NCBI GenBank assembly: GCA_030066975.1
Contig: JASJAO010000007.1
Span: 62,001 to 126,000, forward strand
Reading direction: 5' to 3'
Source: Henriciella sp.
GTDB taxonomy: Bacteria; Pseudomonadota; Alphaproteobacteria; Caulobacterales; Hyphomonadaceae
DNA length: 64,000 nt
Below the pieces are notes generated by a model. That model saw only the letters and a program-made list of their open reading frames with translations. It had not been told where the DNA came from and did no database searches. Of this stretch, positions 1,914 to 23,266 are shown piece after piece. Within the stretch, counting starts at the first letter, position 1. Each line of letters opens with the position of its first letter. The position numbers were made by a program, and so were the translations under genes.

Positions 1914-1992
1914 TTAAAAAACGGGTCGGTGTTCTTAACTTCTTCTCACACCAATAACAATAATCAAACCCGTGGGGATGGAGGACCAAAAG

Positions 1993-2703
1993 ATGAATAC
2001 GCAGTCCATGAATTCAGTCGAACCAGCAGTCAACATGCCCCGCGGACCGCAAACAGCGCCGCAGACAATTGCAACACGATCGAGGCAGAATATTCTCAGA
2101 TTTGCGCCTCATGAGCACATCTTTATGGAGGGCGATCTGCCCAAAGGGATCTACCAGATTGTCGCCGGAACTGTGACGCTCTATCGGGTTATGGCAGATG
2201 GTCGTCGGCAGATTCAGGCCTTTGTGTCTGAAGGCGAATACCTGACGATCACGTTTGGCCGCAACCACGATATCAGCGCGGAGGCGCTTACGGATGTGGT
2301 CGTAACCTGCGAACCTCGCGCGGTGTTTGATCGGCGTTTGCAGGACGACGCGGATTTTCGTCGGAGTGTGTTTACGCTAATTGCGGATAAGCTTCAGGAT
2401 GCGCGTGAGCAGGCGCTGTTGCTAGGGCGCAAAAATGCCATGGAACGCACGGCGAGCTTCCTGTTGTTTCTTGATGAACGGTTTAGTGATCCGCAAACAG
2501 GATATGCAAATATTAGAATGAGCCGCTGTGACATCGCTGATTATCTCGGACTGACGCTCGAAACCGTCAGCCGGATGCTAAACAAGCTGAAACAGATGGG
2601 CGTGATTGATCTGCCGCATGCAACACGGTTTGCAGTACGCCAGAGACAGCGCCTGATCGCCCTAGCCGGTGAACTGCAAAATCAGGACTATATCGCGGCC
2701 TGA
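1993..2703 (+). CDS. fixK: CRP/FNR-family transcription regulator, FixK-like
   Basis: The 236-residue protein has an N-terminal cyclic-nucleotide-type beta roll, a dimerisation helix and a C-terminal winged helix-turn-helix. The recognition helix carries E190-T-V-S193-R194, the FNR/FixK signature that reads TTGAT-N4-ATCAA. The four-cysteine cluster of true FNR is missing (only two scattered Cys), so this is FixK-like and should not sense oxygen through a [4Fe-4S] cluster. The ATG at 1993 is chosen because GGAGG stands eight bases before it; an upstream in-frame GTG at 1972 has no comparable site. A FixJ-like repeat upstream suggests control by FixL/FixJ. Perfect TTGAT-N4-ATCAA boxes at 8870, 12741 and 16610 are probable targets. 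The gene converges on the DUF6629 gene. Confidence 0.88.
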   Translation: MNTQSMNSVEPAVNMPRGPQTAPQTIATRSRQNILRFAPHEHIFMEGDLPKGIYQIVAGTVTLYRVMADGRRQIQAFVSEGEYLTITFGRNHDISAEALTDVVVTCEPRAVFDRRLQDDADFRRSVFTLIADKLQDAREQALLLGRKNAMERTASFLLFLDERFSDPQTGYANIRMSRCDIADYLGLTLETVSRMLNKLKQMGVIDLPHATRFAVRQRQRLIALAGELQNQDYIAA

Positions 2704-8869: not shown

Positions 8870-8883
8870 TTGATCCCGATCAA
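8870..8883. promoter_or_regulatory. Perfect FixK/FNR box shared by usp-exporter operon and hsp20
   Basis: TTGATCCCGATCAA matches TTGAT-N4-ATCAA at all ten fixed bases. It lies between divergent genes, 77 bases before the hsp20 ATG and 103 bases before the usp ATG. On the plus strand, TAGGGT at 8905-8910 stands near the -10 position expected for a class II promoter centred at -41.5. One site may serve both directions. Confidence 0.82.
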
Positions 8884-8960
8884 ACTCTGCCCGAATGCAC
8901 CAGCTAGGGTACCGCAACCACCAATGGCTTCAAACAGCCCCAAGAGAAGGACCGATTGTG

Positions 8961-9440
8961 ATGACGACACCGCGCAAAACCGACCAACATGACAGCCGCC
9001 TCCTGGCCAATCCCTTTGCAGCGATGCGGCAAGATATTGACAGTATTTTCAACCGGTACCTGCCGAGCATGTTTCATCACAATCAGGCGCAACAGGACTG
9101 GTCGTTCATCAATGCAGACCTCGACCTCAGTGAGACCGATGACAGCCTCGAACTCGAGATTGATGCGCCTGGTATTGATAAGAAAGATATCGATATTTCA
9201 CTAAACGGTCAGACGCTCAGCGTGAGTGGGACACGCGAGGACAAGCGTGAAGAAAAGGCGAAAGATTTTCATCAGATCGAGCGGTCTTTCGGCTCTTTCC
9301 AGAGACAAATCACCCTGCCGTGCGAGGTGGATACATCGAAGATAGAGGCCTCTCTGAAAGACGGGGTTCTGAAAATCGTGATGCCAAAAACCGAAAAAGC
9401 CAAAGATTCCGCGAAGAAAATTCCAATCAAGGGACTTTGA
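8961..9440 (+). CDS. Small heat shock protein, Hsp20/alpha-crystallin family
   Basis: The 159-residue protein has a variable N-terminal arm (MRQDIDSIFNRYLPSMF) and a full alpha-crystallin domain (about 50-145) with LEIDAPGIDKKDIDISL, the GTREDKREEKAKDFHQIERSFGSF strand region and the conserved DGVLKIVMPK near the C terminus. It ends in the IPIKGL I-x-I/V type motif that docks between dimers. It acts as an ATP-independent holdase chaperone. ATG at 8961 is used because upstream in-frame codons overlap the FixK box. The Lon-like protease gene follows after 44 bases, giving a chaperone-protease pair under probable FixK control. Confidence 0.92.
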   Translation: MTTPRKTDQHDSRLLANPFAAMRQDIDSIFNRYLPSMFHHNQAQQDWSFINADLDLSETDDSLELEIDAPGIDKKDIDISLNGQTLSVSGTREDKREEKAKDFHQIERSFGSFQRQITLPCEVDTSKIEASLKDGVLKIVMPKTEKAKDSAKKIPIKGL

Positions 9441-9484
9441 TTGCATCTCTCACATCGTGATTTACAGATCGAAGGCATGCCTTG

Positions 9485-12016
9485 ATGTCTAGCCAAACGC
9501 GTTCTCAATCGCAGGATCATCACGCGGTGACACGATCCGACCGGCTCGTCGATGATCCGGAATTGTTGAGACGGCGAACTGAGATCACGGTTGAGACGCC
9601 CGCTGAGCAACCAGACCCTTTCTTTGGACAGGATCGCGCTCAATCAGCTGTCGAGCTTGCTGCCAAGATGCAAGCGCGCGGCTACAATCTGTTTGTTGCT
9701 GCGCCGAAGGATTTGCCGGTTCGGGCGCTTCTCAAGCAGCATTTGGAAACGGCCACCGCGATGAAGCGCCCCGCCGCCGATTACGCCTATGTCTACAACT
9801 TCAAATTCCCGTACGCGCCAAAACTCCTGACCCTGCCATCGGGCAAGGCACCAGCGGTTGCGGAGGCTTTTGATGAACTCATTCGGGATCTGAAGGACGC
9901 CATACCGGCCGCATTTGAGAAGCCGGAGTTTCAGTCACGTCGCAGGGCGATGGAAAACGCTTTCAAAGAGCAACAGGAAGCCGCTTTCGAAACCCTGGGT
10001 CAACAGGCCCACGATCGGGATGTCGGTATCATCCGAGGGCCTATGGGATTTTCCCTTGCCCCGATGCAAGACGATGAACTGATGAAACCCGAGGACCTGA
10101 AAGCACTTGATGAAGCCGAACAAGAGGCACGGAAAGCCGCTGTTTCAGAGATCCAGAAAAAACTGGAAGACGTTGTTCGATCAGTCCCCAAATGGGAGAG
10201 AGAACTCCGGGAGAACCTCCGAAAACTCGAGCGCGAGACGATTGAAGCCGCGATTACGCAGTCGATCGACGCCACCGAGGCGGATCTGTGTGAGATCCCG
10301 GCGGCCTGTGAGCACCTTCGCACCGTCAAGGAAGACCTGATCCAGAATGCGGATCTGTTCTCTCCCATGATGTCTTCGCAAGGCGATGGGCTGGCAGCGG
10401 CGGTGAGCGGTCTGGATCAGTCCAATCCGTTCGAACGCTATCAAATCAACGTCTTCGTCACGCGCGAGGATACAGATCAACACGTTCCAATCGTCGAAGA
10501 GGACAATCCCACACTCGGCCATCTGGTCGGCCGCGTAGAGCATCGCGCTGAAGGCGGTTATCTGACGACCAGTTTCAAGCTGATCAAACCGGGAGCGCTG
10601 CATCTGGCCGATGGTGGGTTCCTCATCCTTGACGCCAGAAGCTTGTTATCAGAGCCGATGAGTTGGCGTGCTTTGAAGCGAACACTTCAGAGCGGCGATA
10701 TCAAAATTGAAAATCTGACTGAGGCGCTCAGCCTAACCAGCACAATCACGCTTGAGCCCGAGCCCATCCCGTTGACCGCGCGGATTATTCTGATCGGGGA
10801 TGCCTGGATCTATCATATACTGTCGACCTATGATCCCGACTTCAGCCGTTACTTCAAACTGTTCGCTGATTTCGAAGAGTCGATCCCGCGCTCACAGGAC
10901 AATGAGTGTCTCCTGGCACACACCTATCAGCAGCTAGCTCAATCAAATGACCTGTCGGAGATCGACACCGACGGGCTCAATTATCTGATTGAGGAAGCCT
11001 CAAGGGAAGCTGGAGATTCGCAACGGCTTTCGGTTAAGAGCGACAAAGTGCTGGAGACGCTGATGGAGGCCCAGCAATATGCCGCCGCGGCTGAAGGTCA
11101 GGCTATCACACGCGCTGAGATCGAGCGGGCTCAAAAACAAAAAATCCATCGCGCCAGCCGCGTCCGAGATCGGATGCAAGAGCAATTGTTACGCGGGATC
11201 TCATTGGTCGAAACCACCGGCCAAGAGGTCGGACAGATTAACGGATTGAGCGTGTATCAAATTGCCGGATACGCGTTTGGAAAACCCAGCCGTATTACCG
11301 CGCGAACCCGCCCGGGCAGTGGTCAGATCGTTGATATTGAAAGAGAAGCCCGCCTTGGCGGTCCCATTCACTCCAAAGGTGTGATGGTGCTGTCGGGGTA
11401 TCTGGCAGGCCGTTATGCACTGACCACCCCGCTATCATTACATGCCTCGATTGTGCTGGAGCAGTCTTATGGCGGTGTTGAAGGAGACAGCGCTTCACTG
11501 GGCGAACTCCTGACCATCCTGTCGGCCTTGTCGGGCTGTCCTGTAAAACAGTCGCTGGCCATTACCGGTGCCGTCAACCAGCTTGGAGAGGTTCAGGCTG
11601 TCGGCGGTGTGAACGAGAAGGTTGAAGGATTCTTCGATCTTTGCTCGGAACGCGGTCTAAGCGGCGAGCAAGGCGTCATTCTGCCATCGAGTAATGTTCA
11701 GCACCTTATGTTGAGACCGGACGTGGTTTCGGCATGTCAGGCCGGGAAGTTTTCCGTTTATGCCATTTCAACCCTGGATGAGGCCATCCCGATCTTGTTC
11801 GACCTGCCTGCAGAGACTGTACATAAGCGGATCGAGGCCACACTCGAAGGTTATGCAAAAGCCATACGCGGGAGCCTACCACAGCGGCCGGACTCAAAAA
11901 TCGATCAAATCAGTGAGGCACCATTTTCGCTTCCCGATGAAGGGCCTTCCGAACCACCGCCAGATACGCCTCCAGAGCAGCCTCCCAAGTCTGATGTTGG
12001 ATCGCGGAAGCTATGA
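9485..12016 (+). CDS. Lon-like protease (AAA_32/LonB-LonC type) with degenerate Walker A
   Basis: The 843-residue protein has an N-terminal AAA-like domain with a long coiled-coil insertion (about 130-270), a LID region and a C-terminal Lon proteolytic domain. The catalytic dyad is intact: Ser669 in VEGDSAS and Lys712 in GGVNEKVEGF, 43 residues apart as in classical Lon. The place where a P-loop should be reads LFVAAPKDLPVRALLK and lacks GxxxxGK[ST], so ATP hydrolysis is doubtful, as in LonC-like or YcbZ-like homologues. The C-terminal ~40 residues are Pro/Glu rich. ATG at 9485 is preferred to the TTG one codon earlier. The gene lies between hsp20 and an overlapping gene of unknown function (ATGA). 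Confidence 0.85.
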   Translation: MSSQTRSQSQDHHAVTRSDRLVDDPELLRRRTEITVETPAEQPDPFFGQDRAQSAVELAAKMQARGYNLFVAAPKDLPVRALLKQHLETATAMKRPAADYAYVYNFKFPYAPKLLTLPSGKAPAVAEAFDELIRDLKDAIPAAFEKPEFQSRRRAMENAFKEQQEAAFETLGQQAHDRDVGIIRGPMGFSLAPMQDDELMKPEDLKALDEAEQEARKAAVSEIQKKLEDVVRSVPKWERELRENLRKLERETIEAAITQSIDATEADLCEIPAACEHLRTVKEDLIQNADLFSPMMSSQGDGLAAAVSGLDQSNPFERYQINVFVTREDTDQHVPIVEEDNPTLGHLVGRVEHRAEGGYLTTSFKLIKPGALHLADGGFLILDARSLLSEPMSWRALKRTLQSGDIKIENLTEALSLTSTITLEPEPIPLTARIILIGDAWIYHILSTYDPDFSRYFKLFADFEESIPRSQDNECLLAHTYQQLAQSNDLSEIDTDGLNYLIEEASREAGDSQRLSVKSDKVLETLMEAQQYAAAAEGQAITRAEIERAQKQKIHRASRVRDRMQEQLLRGISLVETTGQEVGQINGLSVYQIAGYAFGKPSRITARTRPGSGQIVDIEREARLGGPIHSKGVMVLSGYLAGRYALTTPLSLHASIVLEQSYGGVEGDSASLGELLTILSALSGCPVKQSLAITGAVNQLGEVQAVGGVNEKVEGFFDLCSERGLSGEQGVILPSSNVQHLMLRPDVVSACQAGKFSVYAISTLDEAIPILFDLPAETVHKRIEATLEGYAKAIRGSLPQRPDSKIDQISEAPFSLPDEGPSEPPPDTPPEQPPKSDVGSRKL

Positions 12017-12720
12017 CAGACCAGAACGATACGCCGCCGCACGCCCTCATCATGGGGCTCCTGTCCGATGAAGACGAACGATCAGATATCGCGGCGCTGA
12101 GGCTCGTGCGCCAATTTGCCAATCGGTGCACAAGTATTCTCATCAACGATCAGAACTTTTCTGCCAATGGCGGTCGGGCATTGGGTCAATTGACTCGTGC
12201 TGAAAGCCGTCGACAGCACTTGCTGAGTTTGGCCGAGAAACTGGATATGGAGTTAGACGTTATCGTTGCCGAGATGCGCGACAGTCTTGAAAAGCTACGC
12301 AGCAGTGCAAAGAATGATCTTGTTATCCTGAATCAACCTGCCCAAGCTCTGGACCGCCAGACATTCGTGTTCCGCCGGATGGAGCGCGCGCTGATCGAGC
12401 TTCCAAATCCGGTTCTGTACGCGCCTTCGGGTGCGGCATCGAAGAACAGAGAAATCATCGTGCTGAGCAGCGCGGCGGACTCGCAAGTCGTCAGTGTTAC
12501 TGATCGCCTGGCCAAAAGCGGCGGCCAGATCGTCAACTACCAGATCAGCAGTTTGAGCGACGTCAGTCACCCCGACAGCGAACTTCGCTTGAAGCTCCAG
12601 TCCGACTCTCCAGATCTGATTGTGGTTGATGCGGGAGATCTGCCACAACCCGAAAAGCCCTACTCACGTCTTGCGGCTGTATTGAATATACCTGTTCTGG
12701 TGGTCTCGGAGCGCCAGTGA
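12013..12720 (+). CDS. Unknown protein, possibly divergent universal-stress-like
   Basis: I do not recognise this 235-residue protein with certainty. It shows two alternating strand-helix halves. The second contains REIIVLSSAADSQVVSVTDRLA and later DLIVVDAGDLPQ and NIPVLVVSERQ, a pattern like the end of a UspA fold, but the glycine-rich nucleotide loop is absent. A helical region rich in charged residues (about 55-100) separates the halves. It begins inside the Lon-like stop codon (ATGA), so it is probably translated with the protease and may act with it as an adaptor or sensor; that is inference. Confidence 0.6.
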   Translation: MTDQNDTPPHALIMGLLSDEDERSDIAALRLVRQFANRCTSILINDQNFSANGGRALGQLTRAESRRQHLLSLAEKLDMELDVIVAEMRDSLEKLRSSAKNDLVILNQPAQALDRQTFVFRRMERALIELPNPVLYAPSGAASKNREIIVLSSAADSQVVSVTDRLAKSGGQIVNYQISSLSDVSHPDSELRLKLQSDSPDLIVVDAGDLPQPEKPYSRLAAVLNIPVLVVSERQ

Positions 12721-12740: not shown

Positions 12741-12754
12741 TTGATCCGTATCAA
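12741..12754. promoter_or_regulatory. Perfect FixK/FNR box before the RNase-phosphorylase-PRPP operon
   Basis: TTGATCCGTATCAA matches all ten fixed positions of TTGAT-N4-ATCAA. It is in the 98-base gap between the stop at 12720 and the start at 12819, centred 71 bases before the ATG. TAGGCA at 12778-12783 is a possible -10 element. The box implies that the three-gene operon has its own oxygen-controlled promoter. Confidence 0.82.
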
Positions 12755-12818: not shown

Positions 12819-14183
12819 ATGACTCTGACGCTTCAGTTCCTTGGCGGGGCCGGAACAGTGACGGGATCGAAATTCCTGCTGTCTTTCAAGGATCAACGTG
12901 TTCTCATCGATTGCGGCTTGTTTCAGGGGTACAAACAGCTGCGCCTGCGCAACTGGAAGAAACTGCCGGTTGATCCGGCGAGCATAGACGCGGTCATATT
13001 AACCCACGCCCACATCGACCATTCAGGCTATGTGCCGGCCATGGTGGCCAGTGGCTTTGACGGCGCGGTGCATTGCACAGACGGCACTAAGGCACTGTGC
13101 GAGATCCTGTGGCTGGATAGCGGTCATTTGCAGGAACGAGAAGCCAAGGCGGCCAATCGCGGTGGTTATACGCGCCACAAACCCGCCCGCCCTCTCTATG
13201 ACAAAAAACAAGCCGAAAAGGCCCTGCCCAGACTCACCCCGCACCCGTTCAACAACTGGGTCGAGATCACGCCGGATATTCGCGCCCGGTTTCACGTGGC
13301 CGGACATATTCTGGGCGCGGCCGTTGTTGAAATCGAAGCGAGCTCCAAACGCATAGTTTTTTCCGGAGATCTCGGGCGTCTCGACAATCCGATCATGCAG
13401 CCGCCCGCTGCGATTCGGCATGCAGATTATCTGCTGCTTGAATCCACCTATGGCAACCGAACCCATCCCGACACAGACCCTGAAACCGCTTTGGCAGACG
13501 TCATCAATCGAACCATAAAACGCGGTGGATCTGTGATCATTCCATCGTTTGCGGTCGGACGCGCGCAGGCTTTGCTGTTTCATCTGAACAATCTGATCAC
13601 TGACCAACGTGTTCCCGATGTGCCTGTCTATCTCGACAGTCCGATGGCGATTGATGCCAGCGACATTTTCTGTCGTTTCACAGACGGTCTGAACCTGACA
13701 CCACAACAGGCGCGCGCGGCGTGCGGCTTAGCAACGTTCACGCGCAGCACCGCGGATTCCAAAGCTCTGGACAGAGATCACGAACCGAAGATCCTGATCT
13801 CGGCAAGCGGAATGGCGACGGGCGGTCGGATCCTTTATCATATCAAGGAATACGCCCGTGATCCCAGAAACACGATCCTGTTTGCTGGTTTCCAGGCTGG
13901 CGGCACGCGCGGCGCCCATATGCTGGAGGGTGTTACCGAGATCAAAATCCACGGCAAGTATCATCCCGTGCGCGCGGAAGTGGCCAACCTTCACATGTTG
14001 TCCGCACACGCCGATGCAGATGAAATCATGGCCTGGCTGGACGGGTTCGAAACACCGCCACGCGAAACCTTCATTGTGCACGGGGAACCGGATGCTGCAG
14101 ACACGCTGCGCCACAGAATTGAGGAGGAGAAAAGCTGGAGCGTCACGGTCGCCGAGCATAATGAAGTGGTGGACCTGTCATGA
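12819..14183 (+). CDS. MBL-fold beta-CASP ribonuclease (CPSF73/Ysh1-like)
   Basis: The 454-residue enzyme has the metallo-beta-lactamase core with zinc ligands HAHIDH (63-68), the later HVAGHILGAA His and the SGDLGR Asp, followed by the beta-CASP insert. CASP motifs are visible as LLESTYGNR (acidic motif A), ISASGMATGGR and the C-terminal SAHADADE and IVHGEPDA (motifs B/C region). This family (COG1236-like) cleaves RNA as endo- and/or exonuclease. It is first in a three-gene unit: its stop overlaps the phosphorylase start by ATGA. With that context it may feed RNA-derived nucleotides to the next two enzymes. A FixK box lies upstream. Confidence 0.88.
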   Translation: MTLTLQFLGGAGTVTGSKFLLSFKDQRVLIDCGLFQGYKQLRLRNWKKLPVDPASIDAVILTHAHIDHSGYVPAMVASGFDGAVHCTDGTKALCEILWLDSGHLQEREAKAANRGGYTRHKPARPLYDKKQAEKALPRLTPHPFNNWVEITPDIRARFHVAGHILGAAVVEIEASSKRIVFSGDLGRLDNPIMQPPAAIRHADYLLLESTYGNRTHPDTDPETALADVINRTIKRGGSVIIPSFAVGRAQALLFHLNNLITDQRVPDVPVYLDSPMAIDASDIFCRFTDGLNLTPQQARAACGLATFTRSTADSKALDRDHEPKILISASGMATGGRILYHIKEYARDPRNTILFAGFQAGGTRGAHMLEGVTEIKIHGKYHPVRAEVANLHMLSAHADADEIMAWLDGFETPPRETFIVHGEPDAADTLRHRIEEEKSWSVTVAEHNEVVDLS

Positions 14184-15694
14184 AGGGTGGGGTCGAAAGT
14201 GATCTGCTGCTGGCGCGCAGACTCGGCATCGATTCACAACATGAAGCGATCGCGTTCGTTCAGCGCGATTGCCCAGCCTGCAAGTCCGAAGGCTTTTCAG
14301 CGCATTCCCGAGTTCTTCTGCAAAACGGCCAAGCCGAGATCTTTGCGACACTACACCATGTCACTGGCGACCTTATCGGTCTGAATGAGATTGGATTATC
14401 CGAAGTCGCCTGGCAGCGTCTTGGGCTGCAGGAGGCCACGCGGTTGCGCATCTCTCACCCGGCACCTTTGTCCTCGTTTGCGCTCGTGAGGGGCAAAATT
14501 CTCGGTCAACGCCTCAATGAACGGGGGTGCGACCAGATCATTTCAGATATTGTCGACGGGCGATATTCCGACATCCAGTTGACGGCTTTTGTCACCGCCT
14601 GCTCTTCCCACATCCTTGATCGCGATGAAACGACGGCTCTGACGAAGGCCATGGTCAATACAGGTAACGTGCTGAACTGGCCGGGCTCTGTGATTGCCGA
14701 CAAACACTGTGTCGGGGGTTTGCCAGGTAACCGGACAACGCCGATTGTGGTGGCAATTGCCGCCGCACATGGCCTGACGATGCCCAAGACCTCCTCAAAA
14801 GCGATAACCTCGCCGGCGGGCACGGCTGATACGATGAACACGATCACCGATGTTGAACTGTCCGTCGATCAGATGCGAAACGTTCTTGAACGGGTAAACG
14901 CCTGTTTTGTTTGGGGCGGAAGTCTGAACTTCAGCCCGGCCGATGACAAGTTGATCCGGATTCAGAAGGCGATCGATCTGGACAGCGAAGGTCCGCTGAT
15001 CGCCTCAGTCCTGTCTAAAAAAGTGGCCGCAGGGGCCACTCATCTGGTCATCGATATTCCGGTCGGACCCACAGCCAAGGTCCGTAGTGCAGAAGCCGCC
15101 GATTCCCTTCGCGCGCATTTCGAGGAAATCGCGGATCATTTCGGAATCACGCTCAGCGTTCAAATCACCGATGGAACTCAACCCGTTGGACGTGGCATCG
15201 GTCCAGCGCTGGAAGCCCGCGATGTGCTACGGGTGCTGCGCAACGAGGATCTCGCGCCCCCGGAACTGCGGGATCGATCTTGCCTGCTCGCAGGGGCTCT
15301 CTTGGAACTCACGGGCAAAGCTCAGAAGGGTCAGGGCACGCAACTGGCGAGAGACACCCTGCTCAGCGGCGAAGCGAATGCGCATTTTGAAGCCATCTGT
15401 TTGGCGCAAGGGCGATTGTCAGACCCGCCCATAGCCGAGCATCAACGCACGATCAGCGCACCACGTAATGGTCGAATTGCCAACATTGACAATCGCCGCC
15501 TGGCAAAAGCTGCCAAGCTTGCGGGTGCGCCAGAAGATCCGGCCGCAGGTATCGATCTGCACGTTTATCTGGGTGACATTGTGCGCCAGGGCGGCGGTCT
15601 TTTCACCCTGCACACGGAAAGCCCGGGGGAACTCGCCTATGCCGTTGAGTATGTCGTGGCCAATCCCGGCATCGTCGAGATTACAGCGCCATGA
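14180..15694 (+). CDS. AMP/NMP phosphorylase-like (archaeal-type thymidine phosphorylase family)
   Basis: The 504-residue protein is close in length and motifs to archaeal AMP phosphorylase (about 503 residues), not to bacterial thymidine phosphorylase (about 440). The phosphate/ribose loop reads KHCVGGLPGNRTT from Lys175, and SKAITSPAGTADTMNT follows near 207-222; GNKTT and ITSPAGTAD are marks of the archaeal group. It has an extra N-terminal domain of about 85 residues and a C-terminal domain with LHVYLGDIVRQGGGLFTLH. The archaeal enzyme converts AMP and other NMPs plus phosphate to base and ribose-1,5-bisphosphate. It overlaps genes on both sides by four bases (ATGA). The activity here is inferred; thymidine phosphorolysis is the alternative. 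Confidence 0.82.
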   Translation: MKGGVESDLLLARRLGIDSQHEAIAFVQRDCPACKSEGFSAHSRVLLQNGQAEIFATLHHVTGDLIGLNEIGLSEVAWQRLGLQEATRLRISHPAPLSSFALVRGKILGQRLNERGCDQIISDIVDGRYSDIQLTAFVTACSSHILDRDETTALTKAMVNTGNVLNWPGSVIADKHCVGGLPGNRTTPIVVAIAAAHGLTMPKTSSKAITSPAGTADTMNTITDVELSVDQMRNVLERVNACFVWGGSLNFSPADDKLIRIQKAIDLDSEGPLIASVLSKKVAAGATHLVIDIPVGPTAKVRSAEAADSLRAHFEEIADHFGITLSVQITDGTQPVGRGIGPALEARDVLRVLRNEDLAPPELRDRSCLLAGALLELTGKAQKGQGTQLARDTLLSGEANAHFEAICLAQGRLSDPPIAEHQRTISAPRNGRIANIDNRRLAKAAKLAGAPEDPAAGIDLHVYLGDIVRQGGGLFTLHTESPGELAYAVEYVVANPGIVEITAP

Positions 15695-16587
15695 GCCCGG
15701 TCGTGTTTGCACTTCCCGGTGCCGAAGCGCTTGCGACAGATATCGCCGGGCGTCTGGGCGCTATGCGCGGTGAGCTCGACACGCGCACATTCCCGGATCA
15801 AGAGCGATACTTTCGGTTGCTAAGCCCCGTGAAAGGTCGCGACATTCTATTCGTCGCCTATTTAGACGACCCCGATCCGAAAATGCTGTCGGTGCTGATG
15901 CTCGCGGAAGGATTTCGTCAACACGGGGCCCGGTCTGTCACGCTGGTGGCGCCCTACCTGCCCTACATGCGCCAGGATGCAGAGTTCAATCCCGGTGAAA
16001 TCGTAACTGCGCGTGTGTTCGCGAAACTGGTCTCCACCGCTTTCGACGGGCTGGTCACGATTGACCCACACCTTCACAGGTTCAACCACCTTGGTGAACT
16101 ATACGAGATTCCGACGCTCTGTCTGTCTTCCGCGACCGTTCTGGCCAGATGGATCGAGGACCACGCCAAAGCCCCGTTTCTGATCGGTCCAGACCAGGAA
16201 AGCGAACAATGGGTAAGCCAGATTGCCGACCTGATCCAAGCCCCCTATCAAACGCTGACCAAGACCCGACGGGGGGATCGCGATGTCGACATATCGCTGC
16301 CAGACTTGGCGGGGTTGCAAGACCATACAATTGTTCTGATCGACGACATCATTTCTTCCGGCGCAACGATAAGGAAGACGCTTTCACTGCTGACAGGTGC
16401 GCATTTGGATCTCGATATTCTATGCTGCGCGACACATGGGCTAGCTTCGGAAGATGTCATTCAAAGCCTTCGCGACCTGGGGGTTCGATCAATTGCCACC
16501 ACCTTAACGGTTCCGGGTGCTGTATCAGATATTCCAATCGGTGAGCTGATTGCCTCAGAGCTTCCGGCCTTTCTCGCGAAGACCTGA
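15691..16587 (+). CDS. Ribose-phosphate pyrophosphokinase-like protein
   Basis: The 298-residue protein has the tandem phosphoribosyltransferase fold of PRPP synthetases. Visible motifs are FPDQERYFRL near 34-43, RQDAEFNPGE from Arg94 (archaeal-style spacing), IDPHLHRF (124-131), the KTRRGD flexible loop at 191-196 and the PRPP loop VLIDDIISSGAT (215-226). It is somewhat shorter than housekeeping PrsA (about 310) and diverges from it, so it is probably a specialised paralogue. Its start overlaps the phosphorylase stop (ATGA). The family makes PRPP from ribose-5-phosphate and ATP; next to an NMP phosphorylase it may handle ribose phosphates released from nucleotides. The direction of flux is not known. 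Confidence 0.85.
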   Translation: MSPVVFALPGAEALATDIAGRLGAMRGELDTRTFPDQERYFRLLSPVKGRDILFVAYLDDPDPKMLSVLMLAEGFRQHGARSVTLVAPYLPYMRQDAEFNPGEIVTARVFAKLVSTAFDGLVTIDPHLHRFNHLGELYEIPTLCLSSATVLARWIEDHAKAPFLIGPDQESEQWVSQIADLIQAPYQTLTKTRRGDRDVDISLPDLAGLQDHTIVLIDDIISSGATIRKTLSLLTGAHLDLDILCCATHGLASEDVIQSLRDLGVRSIATTLTVPGAVSDIPIGELIASELPAFLAKT

Positions 16588-16609: not shown

Positions 16610-16623
16610 TTGATCATGATCAA
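16610..16623. promoter_or_regulatory. Perfect FixK/FNR box before the APC permease
   Basis: TTGATCATGATCAA matches all ten fixed bases of the FNR/FixK consensus and is a complete 14-base palindrome. Its centre is about 63 bases before the ATG at 16680. If it works as a class II site, transcription would begin near 16658, which excludes the TTG at 16650 as start codon. Confidence 0.82.
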
Positions 16624-16679
16624 TACCAGATAGGACGACTTCGAACACCTTGACGCGAAGAGAGATCAGGCGCCAATCG

Positions 16680-17912
16680 ATGTCAGACATCGCTTCTACA
16701 ACAGAGGACAAACCTCACCTTCGTCGACGGCTGACGCTGCCGCTATTGATCCTGTATGGCCTGGGCGTCACGGTCGGAGCGGGAATTTACGTTTTAGTCG
16801 GCACAACGGCGGCTCATGCAGGCCTCTATGCGCCCATTGCCTTTCTAGCGGCCGCGCTCGTCGTGGCGTTTACCGGATTTTCCTATAGCGAACTCAGCAC
16901 ACGCTTCCCGGTCAGCGCTGGCGAAGCCGCGTATGTGAGAGCCGGTCTTCGCTCCAAACGCATTGCCTTTATCGTTGGCGTCATGGTGGCTGCGATTGGT
17001 GCGATATCGGCTTCGGCGATCATGGTCGGGGCGAGCGCCTATCTTGAAGACTTCCTGCTCATCGACGCCAAAATACTGACGCTTCTCATTGGCCTGATAC
17101 TGGGCCTCGTGGCGGTTTGGGGGGTGTTGGAATCAGTGGGAATGGCCGCTGTTTTCACGGTCGTCGAGATCCTCGGCCTTGTTCTGGTTCTAGGGTTTGG
17201 TTTGACCACCAACCCGGAACTCGTGACACAGCTTGACCGGCTGATCCCACCCTTGGATCCGAACATCTGGGTCGGGATCGGATCTGCGAGCTTGCTTGCG
17301 TTCTTTGCGTTTGTTGGCTTTGAGGACTTGGCCAACATTGCGGAGGAAGCGGTCAATCCCGGTCGCAACATGCCTCGCGCGATTATCTGGACGCTCGTGC
17401 TTGCCACCATTCTCTATCTGGCAGTGGTCTCAGTTGTCGTGTTGAGCGTGCCCATCGACGCGTTGGCCAGCTCCGCCGCGCCGCTCAATCTTGTCTTCGC
17501 AGACGCGCCGCCATCGGTTCGTGTTAGTTTCAATCTGATTGCAGCGGTGGCGACACTGAACGGGGTTCTCATTCAGATGATCATGTCGTCGAGGGTGCTA
17601 TACGGCCTAGCCAAGCAGGATCAATTGCCCAAACAGCTGGGCTACATTCATCCACAAACCCGGACCCCGGTTGTGGCGACGGCGTTGGTAACTTTGATTG
17701 TATTGGTCCTTAGCCTGCTTGTTCCAATCGAAAGCCTTGCCGAACTTACGTCGGAAATCGCCCTCAGCGTCTTCGCGCTTGTGAACCTTGCGCTCCTCAC
17801 ACTGAAACTGCGCCGCGACCCTGTACCAGCAGGCGTGTTTTCGGTCCCTCTTATCGTTCCAATGATCGGCTTCATCTCTTGCGCGATGCTCTTGATCTTT
17901 GGTCTGTTTTGA
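16680..17912 (+). CDS. APC-family amino acid/polyamine-type permease
   Basis: The 410-residue inner-membrane protein has about 11-12 transmembrane helices and begins, after a short hydrophilic tail, with LPLLILYGLGVTVGAGIYVLVG. That is the APC helix-1 unwound motif (G-x-G-x-GIYV) at which substrate is bound. FAFVGFEDLANIAEEAVNPGRNMPRAI is the conserved helix 6 and following loop. ATG at 16680 is used because the earlier TTG would lie upstream of the expected FixK-dependent transcription start. The specific amino acid cannot be told. A perfect FixK box stands upstream. It converges on the WD40/STAND gene with 84 bases between them. Confidence 0.88.
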   Translation: MSDIASTTEDKPHLRRRLTLPLLILYGLGVTVGAGIYVLVGTTAAHAGLYAPIAFLAAALVVAFTGFSYSELSTRFPVSAGEAAYVRAGLRSKRIAFIVGVMVAAIGAISASAIMVGASAYLEDFLLIDAKILTLLIGLILGLVAVWGVLESVGMAAVFTVVEILGLVLVLGFGLTTNPELVTQLDRLIPPLDPNIWVGIGSASLLAFFAFVGFEDLANIAEEAVNPGRNMPRAIIWTLVLATILYLAVVSVVVLSVPIDALASSAAPLNLVFADAPPSVRVSFNLIAAVATLNGVLIQMIMSSRVLYGLAKQDQLPKQLGYIHPQTRTPVVATALVTLIVLVLSLLVPIESLAELTSEIALSVFALVNLALLTLKLRRDPVPAGVFSVPLIVPMIGFISCAMLLIFGLF

Positions 17913-17996: not shown

Positions 17997-20900
17997 TCAG
18001 CCTGATGTGAAGCGATCACACCAATCTGGCGCAGTGGCTGCCAATTGTAACTGTCGGCGCTCTTCAGCGGTCAGACAGCGTGTCACCGTTTCACGCGCTG
18101 CACGCGCCAAGGCTGATCCGGTAAAGGACCACGCCATCACTTCTCCATCACGGGTACCGGTCAGAAGACTGTTACTGTCAGCGCTCCACGCAATCGCGGT
18201 AACGTCTTCTGCGTCAAGGGTAAGTTTACGCGCTCCGGTGCGGACGTCCCAGATGCTGACGCTCAGAGAGGCAATCGCGATATAACGGCTATCGGGACTG
18301 AACGCGACATCTTCAATATTCGCGGAGAAAATCCAGGATTGGGTCAGTGCGCCGGTATCGGCCGCGCGAACCTCAACCAGATTATCGGCGCCGCCCATGG
18401 CGATGAATCCGCCATTCGCCGAAAAGTCGACAGAGCCAATCGCGCCGCCGCGTGAAAAGGTCTGTCTGGTGGTCTCGCTCGCCACATCCCAGAGCCGTGC
18501 AGTCGCGTCGCTCGCACCGGTCAACACCGTGGCTCCGTCCGGGCTTAATGCGATCGCGCGAACGCCGCCAGTGTGCCCTTCAAGCGTCGCAATCGGTCGA
18601 CGGGCCGCGCCATCGCTCACGTCCCAGATCCTGGCAAGTTCGTCATCACCCCCCGTCGCGAGAATGTTGGTATCTGCGGCCCAGCTCACGCTTCTTGGAT
18701 CTTTCACGTTGCTGAGCAGCACCTCGACCGCATCGCCGTTCTGCAGATCCAGCAGCAAAAATCGCCGATCTGCCAATGCCACGGCCGCATAGGTGCCGGA
18801 AGCATTAAGAGCCACGTCATAGATGATCGCATCGGTGTCGCTCTTGAAAGAGGTTCGGCGTTCACCCGTATCGAGATTCCAAAGGATCACTTCGCCATTG
18901 TTTGAGGCCGCCGCGAGGTTGAGGTCCAGGGCATCGGTTGAAAGCGCCCGGATCTGACTGTTATCACGACGTAGAAGAAGGGGATCTTCGAACCGGGTAA
19001 ACACTGTCGCCGCGTCCGGGTCTTCAGACAGCATCTGGCCATTCGGCCATGCGGTCGTCGAAACCGTTTCCATCGCCACAAGCCTTGAGATCTCATCACT
19101 GACCGGCTCATTGTTCAACTCCAACAAGGCCAGTCGGGCGGCGTGTTGAGGAAGGGTCGCAGGGCTCAGGGACCGCGCGGCCGCGATGTAGAGTCGAGAT
19201 ACGCGATCGCGATTTGCTTCGCCGCTTGTCTCAAGGCGGCTGTCGCTCGCCGCGGTGATCAGACGTTCAAACGCGTCCTCCGCCGGAACCAGTTCGGTTA
19301 AGGCCTGCAAGGCGTCGGCAGCCGTCTCAATGTCGTCACTGGCGATCAGATCAACATATTTGTCCGCGCGGTCACTTTTGGACAGACACCAGTCCGGAAG
19401 CACACTGCTACCAACCAGATCCGTCCACATCTCTTTCGAGAGGCAGATGCTGTCTGAGCGCTCGTTCGACGATGTTGATTGTGCGGCGAGGAATCTTTGC
19501 TCTGCAGCCGCAATGACCTCAGCAATAGGTTCTGACATGTCTGCTTCGACAAACTCAAATATGCGAAGGTACCCGCTGTCGGTGCCAGTGACGATATGCG
19601 TGCCGTCAGGCGTCCAGGCAATGGAGTCGACATCATTCTTGTGTCCGCGGAGTTCTGCGACAAGGTCCCCCTGCGGAATAGACCATACGCGCGCTTCTCC
19701 CGCATCCGATCCGGTCGCGAGATAGCGGCTGTTAGGGTGAAAGGCGAGGCCGCGGGCGGCTTCCTTGTTGCTCAGTCGCGCAACTTCAGTTCCGTCTGCA
19801 CGCCACACAACCATCGTGCCGTCATCCAGACCGCTCGCGATATACTGCCCATCCGGTGACCATTCGACAGAGAAGAACTCCCCGCCGCCAATAACCCGCA
19901 TTTCACCATCGGCAATATCGTGAATCTGAATTCCTTCTTTCAAGGGTGCGATTGCGATCTGGGTTGAGTCCTGATTGAACGCGACGCCCATCGCCAGTTC
20001 GCTCTTGCTGGTGAACGCACGAAACGGCTCAGTGTCTTCCCGCCACTGCCAAAGTCGCGCCGTTCCGCGATCTGCACCTGCAGCCAGCCACTCTCCATCT
20101 GCAGACCAGGCGCCACCCCAATTTCGGCCAGGAGCGTCAAGTGAGACGATCGGCTGATCCGCATCCACACTCCACACATTTGCTTTGCCGTCATATCCGA
20201 CTGTGAGCAGTTCTCCGCTGACAGGGTTGAAACGAACCTGTCCAATCTGATCCGTGTGTGCATTGCGCACGTGGCGATGCTCCACGATCTGACCATCGCG
20301 ATAGCCGTTCCCAGCATCCCAAATCATAAAATGCCCATCATCAGAACCGGCTGCTACAAAACGCCCGTCCCGGCTGACGGCAACGCCATCAACCTCATCC
20401 GCGGAAAACTTGCTGACGAAAACTGGATCGAGAGCCTGCAAGGCTACTCTAAAGTCGCGCTGCTTCTCCTCAAAAGCGGCAGCAAGTTCTGGATCCAGTC
20501 CGTTGATATCGTCGAAATCGATCTGCTCTTTATTGAGCAGGAATAGCCCGATCTGCGCACGCAGATCTGTCGAATCGACCTCACCACCTAAGGATTCCCA
20601 TAGCGTCGGGTCGACCAAGCTGTCCCAATCTTCAACCAGGCTTGCAACGACCTCCGATTGATAGAGCGCGCGATTGGCATTGGCATTCAAAAGACCGTAG
20701 AAGCTGGTTATCGCCAGACCGATCATCACCACCAATGCGGTGAGCGCTCCAAAGAGGATTTGTCGACCGCGTTTGAGATCCTGCTCCTGTTTGCGCTGCT
20801 CTTCATCGACAGCGTCACGACTGCGTGAGATCAGATCCCGAACGATGTCCCAATCACCCCCGTAACGGTCAGCCCAGACTGGCCCCGGCAGGGAGTCCAG

Positions 20901-22229
20901 CAGCCTCTCTCGATCCTCGATCAGGCCCGCGCCAATCAGACCGTCACCTTCTTCTGCTTTAAGGTGCAGAGCCCTCCACAACCGGGCATCGTCTCTTTCA
21001 CGTTGCAGCCATCCGATTGGCCGACCGTTTTCGTCATACTGATCCAGGATACTCAACCGATCCCAGCAACGGATTAGGGACTCGTGGGTTATATCGACGA
21101 TCGGATCCTCGTCCTGGCTCAGGACAAGAAAGCCGGTTTCGGGATCGGCAAACTGTTCAACACAGGCTTCAAGCGCCGCTTTGTCGTCGGCACAAATCTC
21201 CTCGAGCACGCTCAGTCTAATCGGCCGCCGCGTCGCGCGCCCTTCGGAGTCCAACTCAACGACAGCCCGAAACAGGTGCTGCGCACACCACCGTCCCCGC
21301 GGTGACTTCTGCTCCAACTCCTCCAACACCTCGTCAGCGCGCTTTGAAAGCGTCTGCTTCAGCCCGACATAACCGTCCAGCCCGAGCTTTGTCCCGTCAC
21401 TGCCTGCCGACTTGGCTGCGTGATTCCACATATACATCAGACAGTGCTGCACCAGAGGCAGTGCGTCGACTTCATCGCGGCTTTCATCGATCATGCGCGC
21501 GGCGAGTTCAGGCTCAACCTGCCCACCGAAGACTTCCGCCGGGCGCAGGATTGACTCCATCAGTTCGCGTTCTTCAAGGCGCGGCAGAAGGTATTGTGTA
21601 TGGTTCACAACCTCGGCAAATCCTATGAATTGAGCGCAATCACCCAGAAAGTCAGAGCGCATCGTCGCGATAATATGGATGCCTTTTGAAGGCGCTTGGT
21701 CGAAGCCGCACAATATGCTGATCAGCATATTCACTTCAGACTTTTCAATCTGAGCGGCGTAGCGGAAGATCTCTTCAAACTGATCAATCAGCAGGCAGAC
21801 GCTGCCATCCAGTCCAAGCCCGAATTCCTCCTGGATCGACGCCATGGCCTTTTCGCCGCGGTTCAACCTGCGCCGCACTCGGCGGACAATACCAAGCGGC
21901 GCTTCTTCTTCATCGCCGCACCCTTCGATCAGACGAGCGATTGCCTCCGCCAGATTCCAAAGTGGCGCCCCGCCCGGTCGCATTTGCGCCGTGCGCCAGG
22001 ACTTGTCATGACCGTGATGGCTAACCTCAAGACGCGGCAACAAGCCCGCTTTGACAAGCGAAGATTTTCCGCAGCCTGATGTCCCGTGAAGCAGGACAAA
22101 TTGCGAGGTCGCGAGCTTTGCCAGTACGGCATCGACCATACGCTCACGTCCAAAAAAGATCGGCCATTCAGACGATTTGAAGGGACGTATACCGGGATAG
22201 GGCTGCGTGACTTTTGGCGGCGCGCTCAC
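17997..22229 (-). CDS. nSTAND-type NTPase with transmembrane helix and two WD40 blocks
   Basis: The 1410-residue protein opens with the YPGIRPFKSSEWPIFFGRE motif of nSTAND1 proteins. Walker A GTSGCGKSS is at 49-57, Walker B VCLLIDQFEEIF near 145-154 and the arginine motif TMRSDFLGD near 190. A winged-helix segment DITHESLIRCWDRL lies near 380-392. A single transmembrane helix spans about 490-512. Two WD40 blocks follow (about 630-910 and 1105-1390), each with repeated S.DG..(A/I)(T/A)G..D....W units, separated by a helical spacer. I chose GTG at 22229, five bases after the TIR gene stop; the longer open frame starts with TTG inside that gene and has no ribosome site. STAND proteins oligomerise on ligand sensing to switch on an effector; the neighbouring TIR and channel proteins are obvious partners. 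Last gene of the six-gene locus. Confidence 0.88.
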   Translation of the reverse strand: MSAPPKVTQPYPGIRPFKSSEWPIFFGRERMVDAVLAKLATSQFVLLHGTSGCGKSSLVKAGLLPRLEVSHHGHDKSWRTAQMRPGGAPLWNLAEAIARLIEGCGDEEEAPLGIVRRVRRRLNRGEKAMASIQEEFGLGLDGSVCLLIDQFEEIFRYAAQIEKSEVNMLISILCGFDQAPSKGIHIIATMRSDFLGDCAQFIGFAEVVNHTQYLLPRLEERELMESILRPAEVFGGQVEPELAARMIDESRDEVDALPLVQHCLMYMWNHAAKSAGSDGTKLGLDGYVGLKQTLSKRADEVLEELEQKSPRGRWCAQHLFRAVVELDSEGRATRRPIRLSVLEEICADDKAALEACVEQFADPETGFLVLSQDEDPIVDITHESLIRCWDRLSILDQYDENGRPIGWLQRERDDARLWRALHLKAEEGDGLIGAGLIEDRERLLDSLPGPVWADRYGGDWDIVRDLISRSRDAVDEEQRKQEQDLKRGRQILFGALTALVVMIGLAITSFYGLLNANANRALYQSEVVASLVEDWDSLVDPTLWESLGGEVDSTDLRAQIGLFLLNKEQIDFDDINGLDPELAAAFEEKQRDFRVALQALDPVFVSKFSADEVDGVAVSRDGRFVAAGSDDGHFMIWDAGNGYRDGQIVEHRHVRNAHTDQIGQVRFNPVSGELLTVGYDGKANVWSVDADQPIVSLDAPGRNWGGAWSADGEWLAAGADRGTARLWQWREDTEPFRAFTSKSELAMGVAFNQDSTQIAIAPLKEGIQIHDIADGEMRVIGGGEFFSVEWSPDGQYIASGLDDGTMVVWRADGTEVARLSNKEAARGLAFHPNSRYLATGSDAGEARVWSIPQGDLVAELRGHKNDVDSIAWTPDGTHIVTGTDSGYLRIFEFVEADMSEPIAEVIAAAEQRFLAAQSTSSNERSDSICLSKEMWTDLVGSSVLPDWCLSKSDRADKYVDLIASDDIETAADALQALTELVPAEDAFERLITAASDSRLETSGEANRDRVSRLYIAAARSLSPATLPQHAARLALLELNNEPVSDEISRLVAMETVSTTAWPNGQMLSEDPDAATVFTRFEDPLLLRRDNSQIRALSTDALDLNLAAASNNGEVILWNLDTGERRTSFKSDTDAIIYDVALNASGTYAAVALADRRFLLLDLQNGDAVEVLLSNVKDPRSVSWAADTNILATGGDDELARIWDVSDGAARRPIATLEGHTGGVRAIALSPDGATVLTGASDATARLWDVASETTRQTFSRGGAIGSVDFSANGGFIAMGGADNLVEVRAADTGALTQSWIFSANIEDVAFSPDSRYIAIASLSVSIWDVRTGARKLTLDAEDVTAIAWSADSNSLLTGTRDGEVMAWSFTGSALARAARETVTRCLTAEERRQLQLAATAPDWCDRFTSG

Positions 22230-22234
22230 GGCTC

Positions 22235-23266
22235 TTATCCCGCATGGATCGTTTGTTTGAGCCAATTCTGGAACGAATTCGTCCAGTTGGAATTTGCCGC
22301 GTTCAACGGCTCAATGCCGAGTTGTCTGGCAAGGGCTGCATCTCCCCCTTGTCGATCAATTAGAGCGCAGGGAATGTTTTTGCCAAAGACCCGCAAGGCC
22401 GTACGATCACTCACAAGCAGCTGAACATCATGTTCGATCGGGGAATCAACGACCAATGCACACGCCACGTTCGCTTCTTCCTTGAGGATCAAGAGGCGTT
22501 CCTCACGCGCCCGTTCCAGTTGCAGAAGGTCGTCACCAATTGGCTTGGGTGCATACGGCAACACATCACAGCCGCTATCTTCCAATTGCGACTTTGCTTC
22601 GTGCCAATGGGCCTCGTGCGCCGCTTTTGCGTGCAGGTAGATTTTTGGCCGGTCCGCCGTGGGCATGATTACCGAACTTGCCCGGCTGTGCTGCAGCAAT
22701 GCCGATTTGGCTTTGATCTTACGCAAATGATCAACAACAAAAGTCGACAGTTTACTTACGGCAGCGACATATGAACGATCATCTGGAAGGGGCAATGGGA
22801 ACCCGAACGGCTTGGGTTCTGAATGCTCAAACCGCCTGTCATCGTCCGAGTAAAACGTCATCGTGTCAGGAATTTGCTTGAGGCAACCCGGCCATTGCCC
22901 CGGGTCGGTCGGTTCACATAACAGGACGATTGATCGACCACCTTGCGCGACATTCTTCTTGAGTTCTTCTTCAAACCAGTGGGCTTCTTCCCCGCACCAG
23001 GGCGAGCTCAAAAATCGCTTTGACAAGACGACAAGGATCACACCTGAAGAACCAGGCTTATTCCCAAAGCTCACCATCAGCGGCTGGTTTTGGGACTGAT
23101 CAGCACCGAGAAGAATGCTGAAATCGTTCATATCGGACTCGAAATCGAGAATCTCGTCCTGCAATTCAGCGACAAGGTGATTGGTCCATTCGATCAATCG
23201 ATGGTCACGACCATGGTCACAGCTCACGAACAAATCGTGTTTGAAAGGCTGATCAAGAAACGCCAT
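22235..23266 (-). CDS. TIR-domain protein with a second Rossmann-like half
   Basis: The 343-residue protein starts with a TIR domain: HDLFVSCDHG (10-19) is strand A/box 1, an amphipathic helix follows, then GVILVVLSKRFLSSPWCGEEAHWF (75-98). It contains W90-C91-x-x-E94, the WCxxE signature with the catalytic glutamate of NAD+-cleaving or NAD+-transforming TIR enzymes. A second alpha/beta unit (about 213-343) begins RPKIYLHAKAAHEAHWHEAK and resembles another TIR-like or Rossmann half without an obvious catalytic Glu. ATG at 23266 has GGGAG eight bases before it. The nSTAND gene follows at once. Known TIR enzymes deplete NAD+ or make cyclic ADP-ribose signals in defence; that role here is inferred from context. 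Confidence 0.82.
   Translation of the reverse strand: MAFLDQPFKHDLFVSCDHGRDHRLIEWTNHLVAELQDEILDFESDMNDFSILLGADQSQNQPLMVSFGNKPGSSGVILVVLSKRFLSSPWCGEEAHWFEEELKKNVAQGGRSIVLLCEPTDPGQWPGCLKQIPDTMTFYSDDDRRFEHSEPKPFGFPLPLPDDRSYVAAVSKLSTFVVDHLRKIKAKSALLQHSRASSVIMPTADRPKIYLHAKAAHEAHWHEAKSQLEDSGCDVLPYAPKPIGDDLLQLERAREERLLILKEEANVACALVVDSPIEHDVQLLVSDRTALRVFGKNIPCALIDRQGGDAALARQLGIEPLNAANSNWTNSFQNWLKQTIHAG

Follow-up and report, generated by a model that had tools for sequence, protein, structure and literature searches.

A conserved phosphorylase and PRPP-synthetase-like gene pair, found behind a FixK-type box in Henriciella, as a candidate route for recycling nucleotide ribose

The closest described relatives of the gene set considered here are archaeal AMP phosphorylase, the class III (archaeal) synthetase of phosphoribosyl pyrophosphate (PRPP), the kinase PhnN (ribose 1,5-bisphosphokinase), and an operon of Bradyrhizobium diazoefficiens. 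PhnN makes PRPP from ribose-1,5-bisphosphate (R15P). The archaeal AMP phosphorylase has been described as splitting all natural nucleoside monophosphates (NMPs) to the free base and R15P (PMC8376864). In B. diazoefficiens, the genes bll3117-bll3116-bll3115 carry the same three annotated products as the present operon, and microoxic induction and dependence on FixK2 have been reported for them (PMC6515984; PMC9104804). The operon analyzed here lies on a stretch of 64,000 nucleotides from Henriciella sp. (contig JASJAO010000007.1, positions 62,001 to 126,000; hereafter the window) and encodes a beta-CASP RNase, a type-2 phosphorylase, and a PRPP-synthetase-like protein. Its core is the pair formed by the phosphorylase and the synthetase-like protein, to which the RNase is an accessory. 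The best explanation overall, favored but still somewhat doubtful, is a two-enzyme core that would recycle NMPs through R15P, with an RNase attached, a FixK-type box in front, and a synthetase-like partner that would move a single phosphate.

The three open reading frames lie on the forward strand and overlap. The beta-CASP nuclease (12819-14183; 454 aa) has the metallo-beta-lactamase fold with Lactamase_B (PF00753), Beta-Casp (PF10996), and RMMBL (PF07521) domains. It is followed by the phosphorylase (14180-15694; 504 aa), annotated as a type-2 "thymidine phosphorylase" (PRK04350), which contains Glycos_trans_3N, Glycos_transf_3, and PYNP_C domains and an extra N-terminal domain. The PRPP-synthetase-like protein (15691-16587; 298 aa; PRK07199/NF005537) belongs to an archaeal-type branch and contains Pribosyltran_N and Pribosyltran domains. 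ATGA overlaps join the RNase to the phosphorylase at 14180-14183 and the phosphorylase to the synthetase-like gene at 15691-15694. A preliminary description of this DNA had proposed such a doubly overlapping trio behind a perfect FixK box, and both features are borne out. The FixK/FNR-type box, TTGATCCGTATCAA (12741-12754, forward strand), is centered 71 bp before the RNase ATG and is one of three perfect TTGAT-N4-ATCAA sites in the window, where 100 shuffles gave a mean of 0.05.

The distribution of the operon was followed by using each protein of the trio as a query against 299 Pseudomonadota genomes. The type-2 phosphorylase occurs in 36 of these genomes, at 38 loci. The operon-type synthetase, counted at a threshold of at least 124 bits (the next match scores 89.7 bits, and the loop signature discussed below was counted only above the threshold), is present in 34 of the 36 phosphorylase genomes and absent from all 263 others (Fisher p 9e-43). 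Phosphorylase and synthetase genes are contiguous on one strand at 33 of the 38 loci; at L039 and L040 they share one cluster with a phosphoketolase gene in between, and in genome G236 the phosphorylase next to the synthetase is interrupted by a contig end. The partner is missing from two genomes: G255, in which the phosphorylase frame (L067) loses homology part-way, and G249, in which the phosphorylase is fused to PhnN. The G255 locus is probably a decayed copy, with a divergent beta-CASP gene adjoining it and no operon-type synthetase. A beta-CASP gene belongs to the contiguous cluster at 17 of the 38 loci, preceding the phosphorylase at 11 of them and following the pair at six. The trio as a unique unit is accordingly rejected: conservation elsewhere, on which the preliminary description had staked its proposal, does hold, with the pair as the conserved unit and the RNase as an optional first or last gene.

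Plasmids extend this distribution. The phosphorylase is matched by 116 plasmid records at an E-value of 1e-40 or better, 108 of them over at least 80% of the length, and the operon-type synthetase by 104 records at or below 1e-25, 103 of which cover at least 80% of it, these being counts of similarity rather than of the loop signature. Plasmids of Criblamydia (Chlamydiota) and Pontibacter (Bacteroidota) carry RNase, phosphorylase, and synthetase in the order of the window. One scan of genome contigs returned a single relative. Two copies of the operon occur in G259, where the RNase gene of L035 matches in several frames and the L036 copy forms one open frame.

The family to which the phosphorylase belongs is known by name alone, as the "thymidine phosphorylase family." The window protein passes the PRK04350/NF003338 model (642.4 bits; cut-off 434) and TIGR02645 (569.2 bits; cut-off 434.6), and in the PDB it matches the archaeal AMP phosphorylase 4ga5 (327 bits) more closely than any nucleoside phosphorylase. 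With the enzyme of Thermococcus kodakarensis it shares its domain make-up, including the N-terminal domain, as well as a PGN[KR]T motif, an SSRAITS-type motif, and Glu or Gln at the base position. The match to the AMP-phosphorylase equivalog TIGR03327 spans protein residues 15-492 and model positions 7-484 of 500, so that the extra N-terminal domain is present, and this region is covered in 44 of 44 family members. The GNRTT and ITSPAGTAD motifs on which the preliminary description had relied are both found in the protein.

Residues were compared between these 44 family members, three pyrimidine nucleoside phosphorylases, and 4ga5, with the broken phosphorylase of L067 omitted from the counts. 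The PGNRT motif (residues 182-186; 14723-14737, forward strand) occurs in 42 members and PANRT in two; the archaeal enzyme has PGNKT, and the nucleoside phosphorylases have GDTT with a preceding gap. SSRAITS is found in 42 members; the window enzyme and that of the relative L002 are the two with SSKAITS. At the position of an Arg that presumably binds the pyrimidine, R is present in all three nucleoside phosphorylases, whereas the archaeal enzyme has E and the family has E in 42 members and Q in two; in the window, residue alignment places Gln262 there (codon 14963-14965, forward strand). PGNRT, SSKAITS, and Gln262 are features by which the window enzyme matches the single archaeal sequence 4ga5. 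It also keeps the DKH and SKK motifs of nucleoside phosphorylases, including the DKH Lys that the archaeal enzyme lacks. The window enzyme is proposed to be an NMP phosphorylase yielding R15P, a route toward which the loss of the pyrimidine-binding Arg, with the PhnN fusions described next, gives support, as the preliminary description had suggested.

A fusion of PhnN to a phosphorylase of this family occurs at 12 loci, and the same R15P intermediate would be expected there. In the G249 fusion, the PhnN part matches TIGR02322 with 168.8 bits (cut-off 156; residues 4-177) and the phosphorylase part matches NF003338 with 543.5 bits (residues 170-586). Such fusions were found in nine of 150 genomes of the G249 family and on three plasmids (Variovorax, Paraburkholderia, and Pacificitalea), and in a tree they make up a single clade (support 1.0) within the bacterial phosphorylase family (0.994). 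At all 12 loci (L068, L123, L124, L125, and L128-L135), nadC lies beside the fusion or about 1 kb away, and the G249 copy passes its equivalog (324.5 bits; cut-off 198.4). NadC consumes PRPP to make nicotinate mononucleotide (NaMN). The simplest reading is that the fused phosphorylase releases R15P from NaMN and that PhnN returns R15P to PRPP, which suggests a possible PRPP-recycling route that decarboxylates quinolinate to nicotinate; no such route by PRPP cycling was found in the literature searched. The fusion and the adjoining nadC would together point to R15P, rather than ribose-1-phosphate, as the product of the family. A transporter gene stands next to three of the fusion loci, of the TRAP type at L125, for a tripartite tricarboxylate binding protein at L123, and MFS-like by eye at L068.

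The synthetase-like partner just passes NF005537/PRK07199 (325.7 bits; cut-off 322) and also passes TIGR01251 (168.6 bits; cut-off 113). For residue comparison, 42 operon-type proteins (the window, L002, L032-L065, L136, and the five plasmid loci L099-L102 and L126) were set against 32 others, comprising 30 canonical synthetases of 35 high-scoring ones, one L037 paralogue, and the archaeal 1u9y. In a tree, the operon-type proteins cluster together (0.934), with the single archaeal sequence 1u9y as their neighbor (0.986) and bacterial class I separate from both. All 42 retain the RQD motif, the 41 that have sequence at the KxR position all retain KxR, and FPDxE is found in 41 of 42; the truncated or frame-shifted G259 copies (L035 and L036) are included and are the likely cause of the odd FPDxE and the gapped KxR. 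The DD...T of the ribose-5-phosphate (R5P) loop is likewise kept in an alignment, and the residue comparison covered the ten commonest R5P-loop strings of each group. RQD, KxR, and the R5P loop are held in common with class III PRPP synthetase, from which all 42 proteins differ in two places.

The first difference lies in the pyrophosphate loop, which in the window reads GPDQES (residues 166-171; 16186-16203, forward strand), in which Glu170 takes the place of a Gly found in all 32 enzymes compared. The pattern is GPDxE[SA] in 42 of 42 operon-type proteins and [SA]PDxG[GA] in 32 of 32 others (31 bacterial and 1u9y), and the D-Q-E-S of the window departs from the D-x-G-[GA] of PRPP synthetase. 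The second is an H-[LM]-H-R motif (residues 127-130; 16069-16080, forward strand), present in all 42 and in none of the 32, as is its fuller form [DEQ][PA]H[LM]HR. In PRPP synthetase, the residues after the loop Asp cradle the second phosphate of PRPP. A Glu in the loop should exclude that phosphate, which would fit donors that are one phosphate shorter, ADP instead of ATP and R15P instead of PRPP. Because the loop is altered in 42 of 42 proteins, the partner may well not make PRPP, and of the route from NMPs through R15P toward PRPP or ribose phosphate that the preliminary description had drawn, it is the R15P portion that is supported. In the E. coli enzyme, the loop Asp D170 is reported to hold R5P via Mg2+, and H131 and R99 to touch the nucleotide phosphates (PMC9232217).

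Enzymes that might receive the products were sought in the genomes. The genome carrying the window is 99.98% complete and gave no match to the RuBisCO large chain or to the R15P isomerase model, which agrees with the earlier remark that the downstream enzymes of the archaeal pentose bisphosphate pathway are absent here; a PRPP-synthetase-like partner is present instead. RuBisCO occurs in 18 of the 36 phosphorylase genomes, and dependence on it was rejected because the other 18 lack it. R15P isomerase was rejected as well: none of the 36 genomes has a match above the cut-off of 314 bits, 18 having only a distant one (139-187 bits), and three of 14 control genomes lie above it. PhnN exceeds its cut-off in just eight of the 36 genomes, and not in that of the window, and was set aside as the usual R15P sink elsewhere in the genome. 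A canonical PRPP synthetase is found in 35 of the 36 (358-412 bits; the exception, G236, is 70% complete), so the operon-type enzyme would not be a housekeeping one, and bulk PRPP supply was rejected as its obvious role. Phosphoketolase lies in the same stretch at five of the 38 genome loci (L039, L040, L043, L044, and L052) and at two of nine non-fusion plasmid loci viewed (L099 and L101), and four of these seven stretches also hold an acetate-kinase-family gene. In B. diazoefficiens, the phosphoketolase-acetate kinase genes bll2518-bll2517 appear alongside the phosphorylase operon in a table of genes with reduced expression in a ΔfixK2 strain (PMC9104804, Table 2).

The window combines a FixK-type box at a promoter-like distance (-71) with a gene for a Crp/Fnr-family regulator (1972-2703, forward strand; cNMP domain and Crp helix-turn-helix), which is the candidate regulator of all three perfect boxes. 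By eye, the regulator has no Fe-S cysteine cluster, and its recognition helix reads ETVSR. In this lineage, a FixK-type box suggests that the operon is probably induced at low oxygen. The second perfect box (8870-8883, forward strand) precedes an hsp20 - LonB-like protease - 235-aa protein set (8895-12720), and the third (16610-16623, forward strand) lies between the operon and an amino-acid-permease gene (16650-17912). The relative L002 has a perfect box too, at -69. Oxygen control as a general rule was not upheld, since a convincing box is missing at most of the 45 loci inspected. Boxes with at most one mismatch occur at five of these loci (11%; background 2.1%) and with at most two at 16 (36%; background 15.5%), and this excess over background suggests that Fnr-type control through looser sites may be more widespread than the perfect boxes alone would show. 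The FixK box named in the preliminary description is confirmed for the window, and clear FixK control would be a local use of a wider module that is perhaps under looser Fnr-type control elsewhere.

All three B. diazoefficiens genes are reported to rise in microoxia, by values of log2 2.1-4.4 in one column and 5.1-15.4 fold in the next (PMC6515984), columns that are read here as protein and transcript, respectively. In a ΔfixK2 strain, bll3117 was 6.6-fold and bll3115 30.6-fold lower, with a box at -74 (PMC9104804). That operon differs from the window in its order, phosphorylase-synthetase-RNase, and in its diverged box, ATGATCTGGGTCAA. That it is orthologous would follow from its product names and from B. 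septentrionale, which has the identical gene order, rather than from a comparison of sequences.

From the observed gene order, conservation, motifs, fusions, and box, the following reactions and their direction can be inferred, the single-phosphate step as a hypothesis. Where present, the beta-CASP nuclease would make NMPs from RNA, and the phosphorylase would convert NMP and Pi to base and R15P. The PRPP-synthetase-like partner would then act on R15P, a role filled in archaea by R15P isomerase and in bacteria by PhnN, most likely by exchanging one phosphate between an adenine nucleotide and the C1 position of R15P (R15P + AMP <-> R5P + ADP). Transfer of one phosphate is suggested because Glu would close off the loop that holds the second phosphate of PRPP; apart from phosphate number, the chemistry would be that of the parent enzyme. 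In the breakdown direction, R5P would pass to the pentose phosphate or phosphoketolase/acetate kinase routes with one phosphoanhydride saved, and in reverse the pair would allow base salvage without PRPP. A more specific version, possible but rather doubtful, is that a PRPP-synthetase fold re-tooled for this one-phosphate exchange and an NMP phosphorylase together make up a bacterial pentose-bisphosphate shunt, which would ferment RNA ribose when oxygen or energy is limiting and, in some species, would feed directly into phosphoketolase and acetate kinase.

Several points weigh against this proposal. The phosphorylase falls below the TIGR03327 cut-off (462.3 vs. 535 bits), so that the label of archaeal-type AMP phosphorylase given in the preliminary description needs tempering. 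Glu in the partner loop might bind Mg2+ and still permit PRPP. The reaction R15P + AMP -> R5P + ADP is uphill under standard conditions and would need removal of its products. Phosphoketolase is only weakly enriched genome-wide (10/34 vs. 37/265; p 0.04) and is absent from the genome of the window, where R5P would enter the pentose phosphate pathway. The perfect box is rare, occurring at two of the 45 loci (the window and L002), and bll3117-bll3115 carry no FixK2-target mark in the available part of PMC6515984. A plasmid of Azospirillum ramasamyi has phosphorylase and RNase with no partner in that record, its other replicons not having been searched, and among the 150 genomes of the G249 family, 21 more have unfused phosphorylase matches, the partner having been checked in G433 and G255 only. 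At the base position, the 12 fused enzymes have T, V, or N rather than E or Q, and instead of PGNRT they have PGSRI (11) or PGNRI (one), with SSRAITS kept; their substrate or base may therefore differ, which weakens the transfer of their logic to the window enzyme. The fusions also argue for conversion of R15P to PRPP, the PhnN reaction, and not to R5P. No assay of any module member was found in the openly licensed literature searched.

One alternative is that the partner is an ordinary PRPP synthetase: the phosphorylase would free bases, phosphoribosyltransferases would recapture them with PRPP made from R5P and ATP, and the loop change would be harmless or regulatory. That both synthetase models are passed with the catalytic residues kept speaks for it, as does a 2026 preprint (PMC13252144) describing many divergent or new bacterial PRPP synthetase classes that retain these residues, in which eukaryotic members of two classes other than class I were shown to be active; the term thymidine phosphorylase was searched for in its main text and not found. 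This alternative is nevertheless rather unlikely, given the canonical enzyme already present in nearly every phosphorylase genome, and it leaves unexplained the near-absolute pairing, the invariant Glu, and the PhnN fusion within the same phosphorylase family. That fusion, found in G249, a genome without the partner, is the main argument for another possibility, in which the partner converts R15P and ATP to PRPP like PhnN but on a PRPP-synthetase fold (net NMP + Pi + ATP -> base + PRPP + ADP). PhnN is guanylate-kinase-like, with a weaker match to TIGR03263, and does not have that fold. Here PRPP would have to occupy the altered pyrophosphate loop, and the phosphate would presumably go to another oxygen than in known PRPP synthetases. 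Genome G433 moreover keeps both a fusion (L134) and a phosphorylase/synthetase-like pair (L136), which suggests that the two are not simply interchangeable, and a PhnN-like partner is considered improbable.

The remaining alternative concerns the phosphorylase, which by its annotation would be a true (deoxy)nucleoside phosphorylase making ribose-1-phosphate. The NCBIfam title of PRK04350, "thymidine phosphorylase," and the DKH and SKK motifs are in its favor. Against it stand the absence of the pyrimidine-binding Arg from all 44 members, the extra N-terminal domain, a score of 136.5 bits for the best nucleoside phosphorylase in the PDB where 4ga5 reaches 327, and the fusions in which family members are joined to an R15P kinase, which together make it very unlikely. 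The phosphorylase is better read as part of an NMP/R15P route.

The hypoxic route was first put forward as new. The three-product operon is already in print by name, as part of the B. diazoefficiens microoxic/FixK2 response, with no function given in the portions of those reports available (PMC6515984; PMC9104804). What is new is that the pair is almost never separated, that the pyrophosphate loop of the partner is altered, and that fusions to PhnN lie near nadC, none of which was found stated among openly licensed papers; nor was an openly licensed paper found on the phosphorylase with PhnN, with phosphoketolase, or with PRPP synthetase in an anaerobic gene cluster. The pair is present in 34 of the 299 sampled Pseudomonadota genomes and on plasmids of two further phyla, and its current names may be wrong for both parts. 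If the proposal is true, an R15P route would be added to bacteria without RuBisCO, part of the rhizobial microoxic response would be explained, and an enzyme of the PRPP-synthetase fold would have a new reaction.

Some neighbors of the module recur, among them universal stress proteins and P-type ATPases, with F1F0 ATPase genes at three loci; the neighbor census excluded L066, L067, and L068, the last of which was counted with the fusions. On a Legionella anisa plasmid (L102), alternate F1F0 ATPase genes follow the pair, and related genes are clustered at L034 and L052. On the Criblamydia (L099) and Pontibacter (L100) plasmids, an ATP-cone domain protein, a possible nucleotide sensor, is encoded just before the RNase. 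Within the window, the 235-aa protein of the FixK-boxed neighboring set (12013-12720) is without a Pfam or NCBIfam match. Farther downstream, 17997-22265 encodes a 1422-aa protein in which a P-loop close to the N-terminus and WD40-like repeats can be seen by eye, adjoining more large genes on the same strand.

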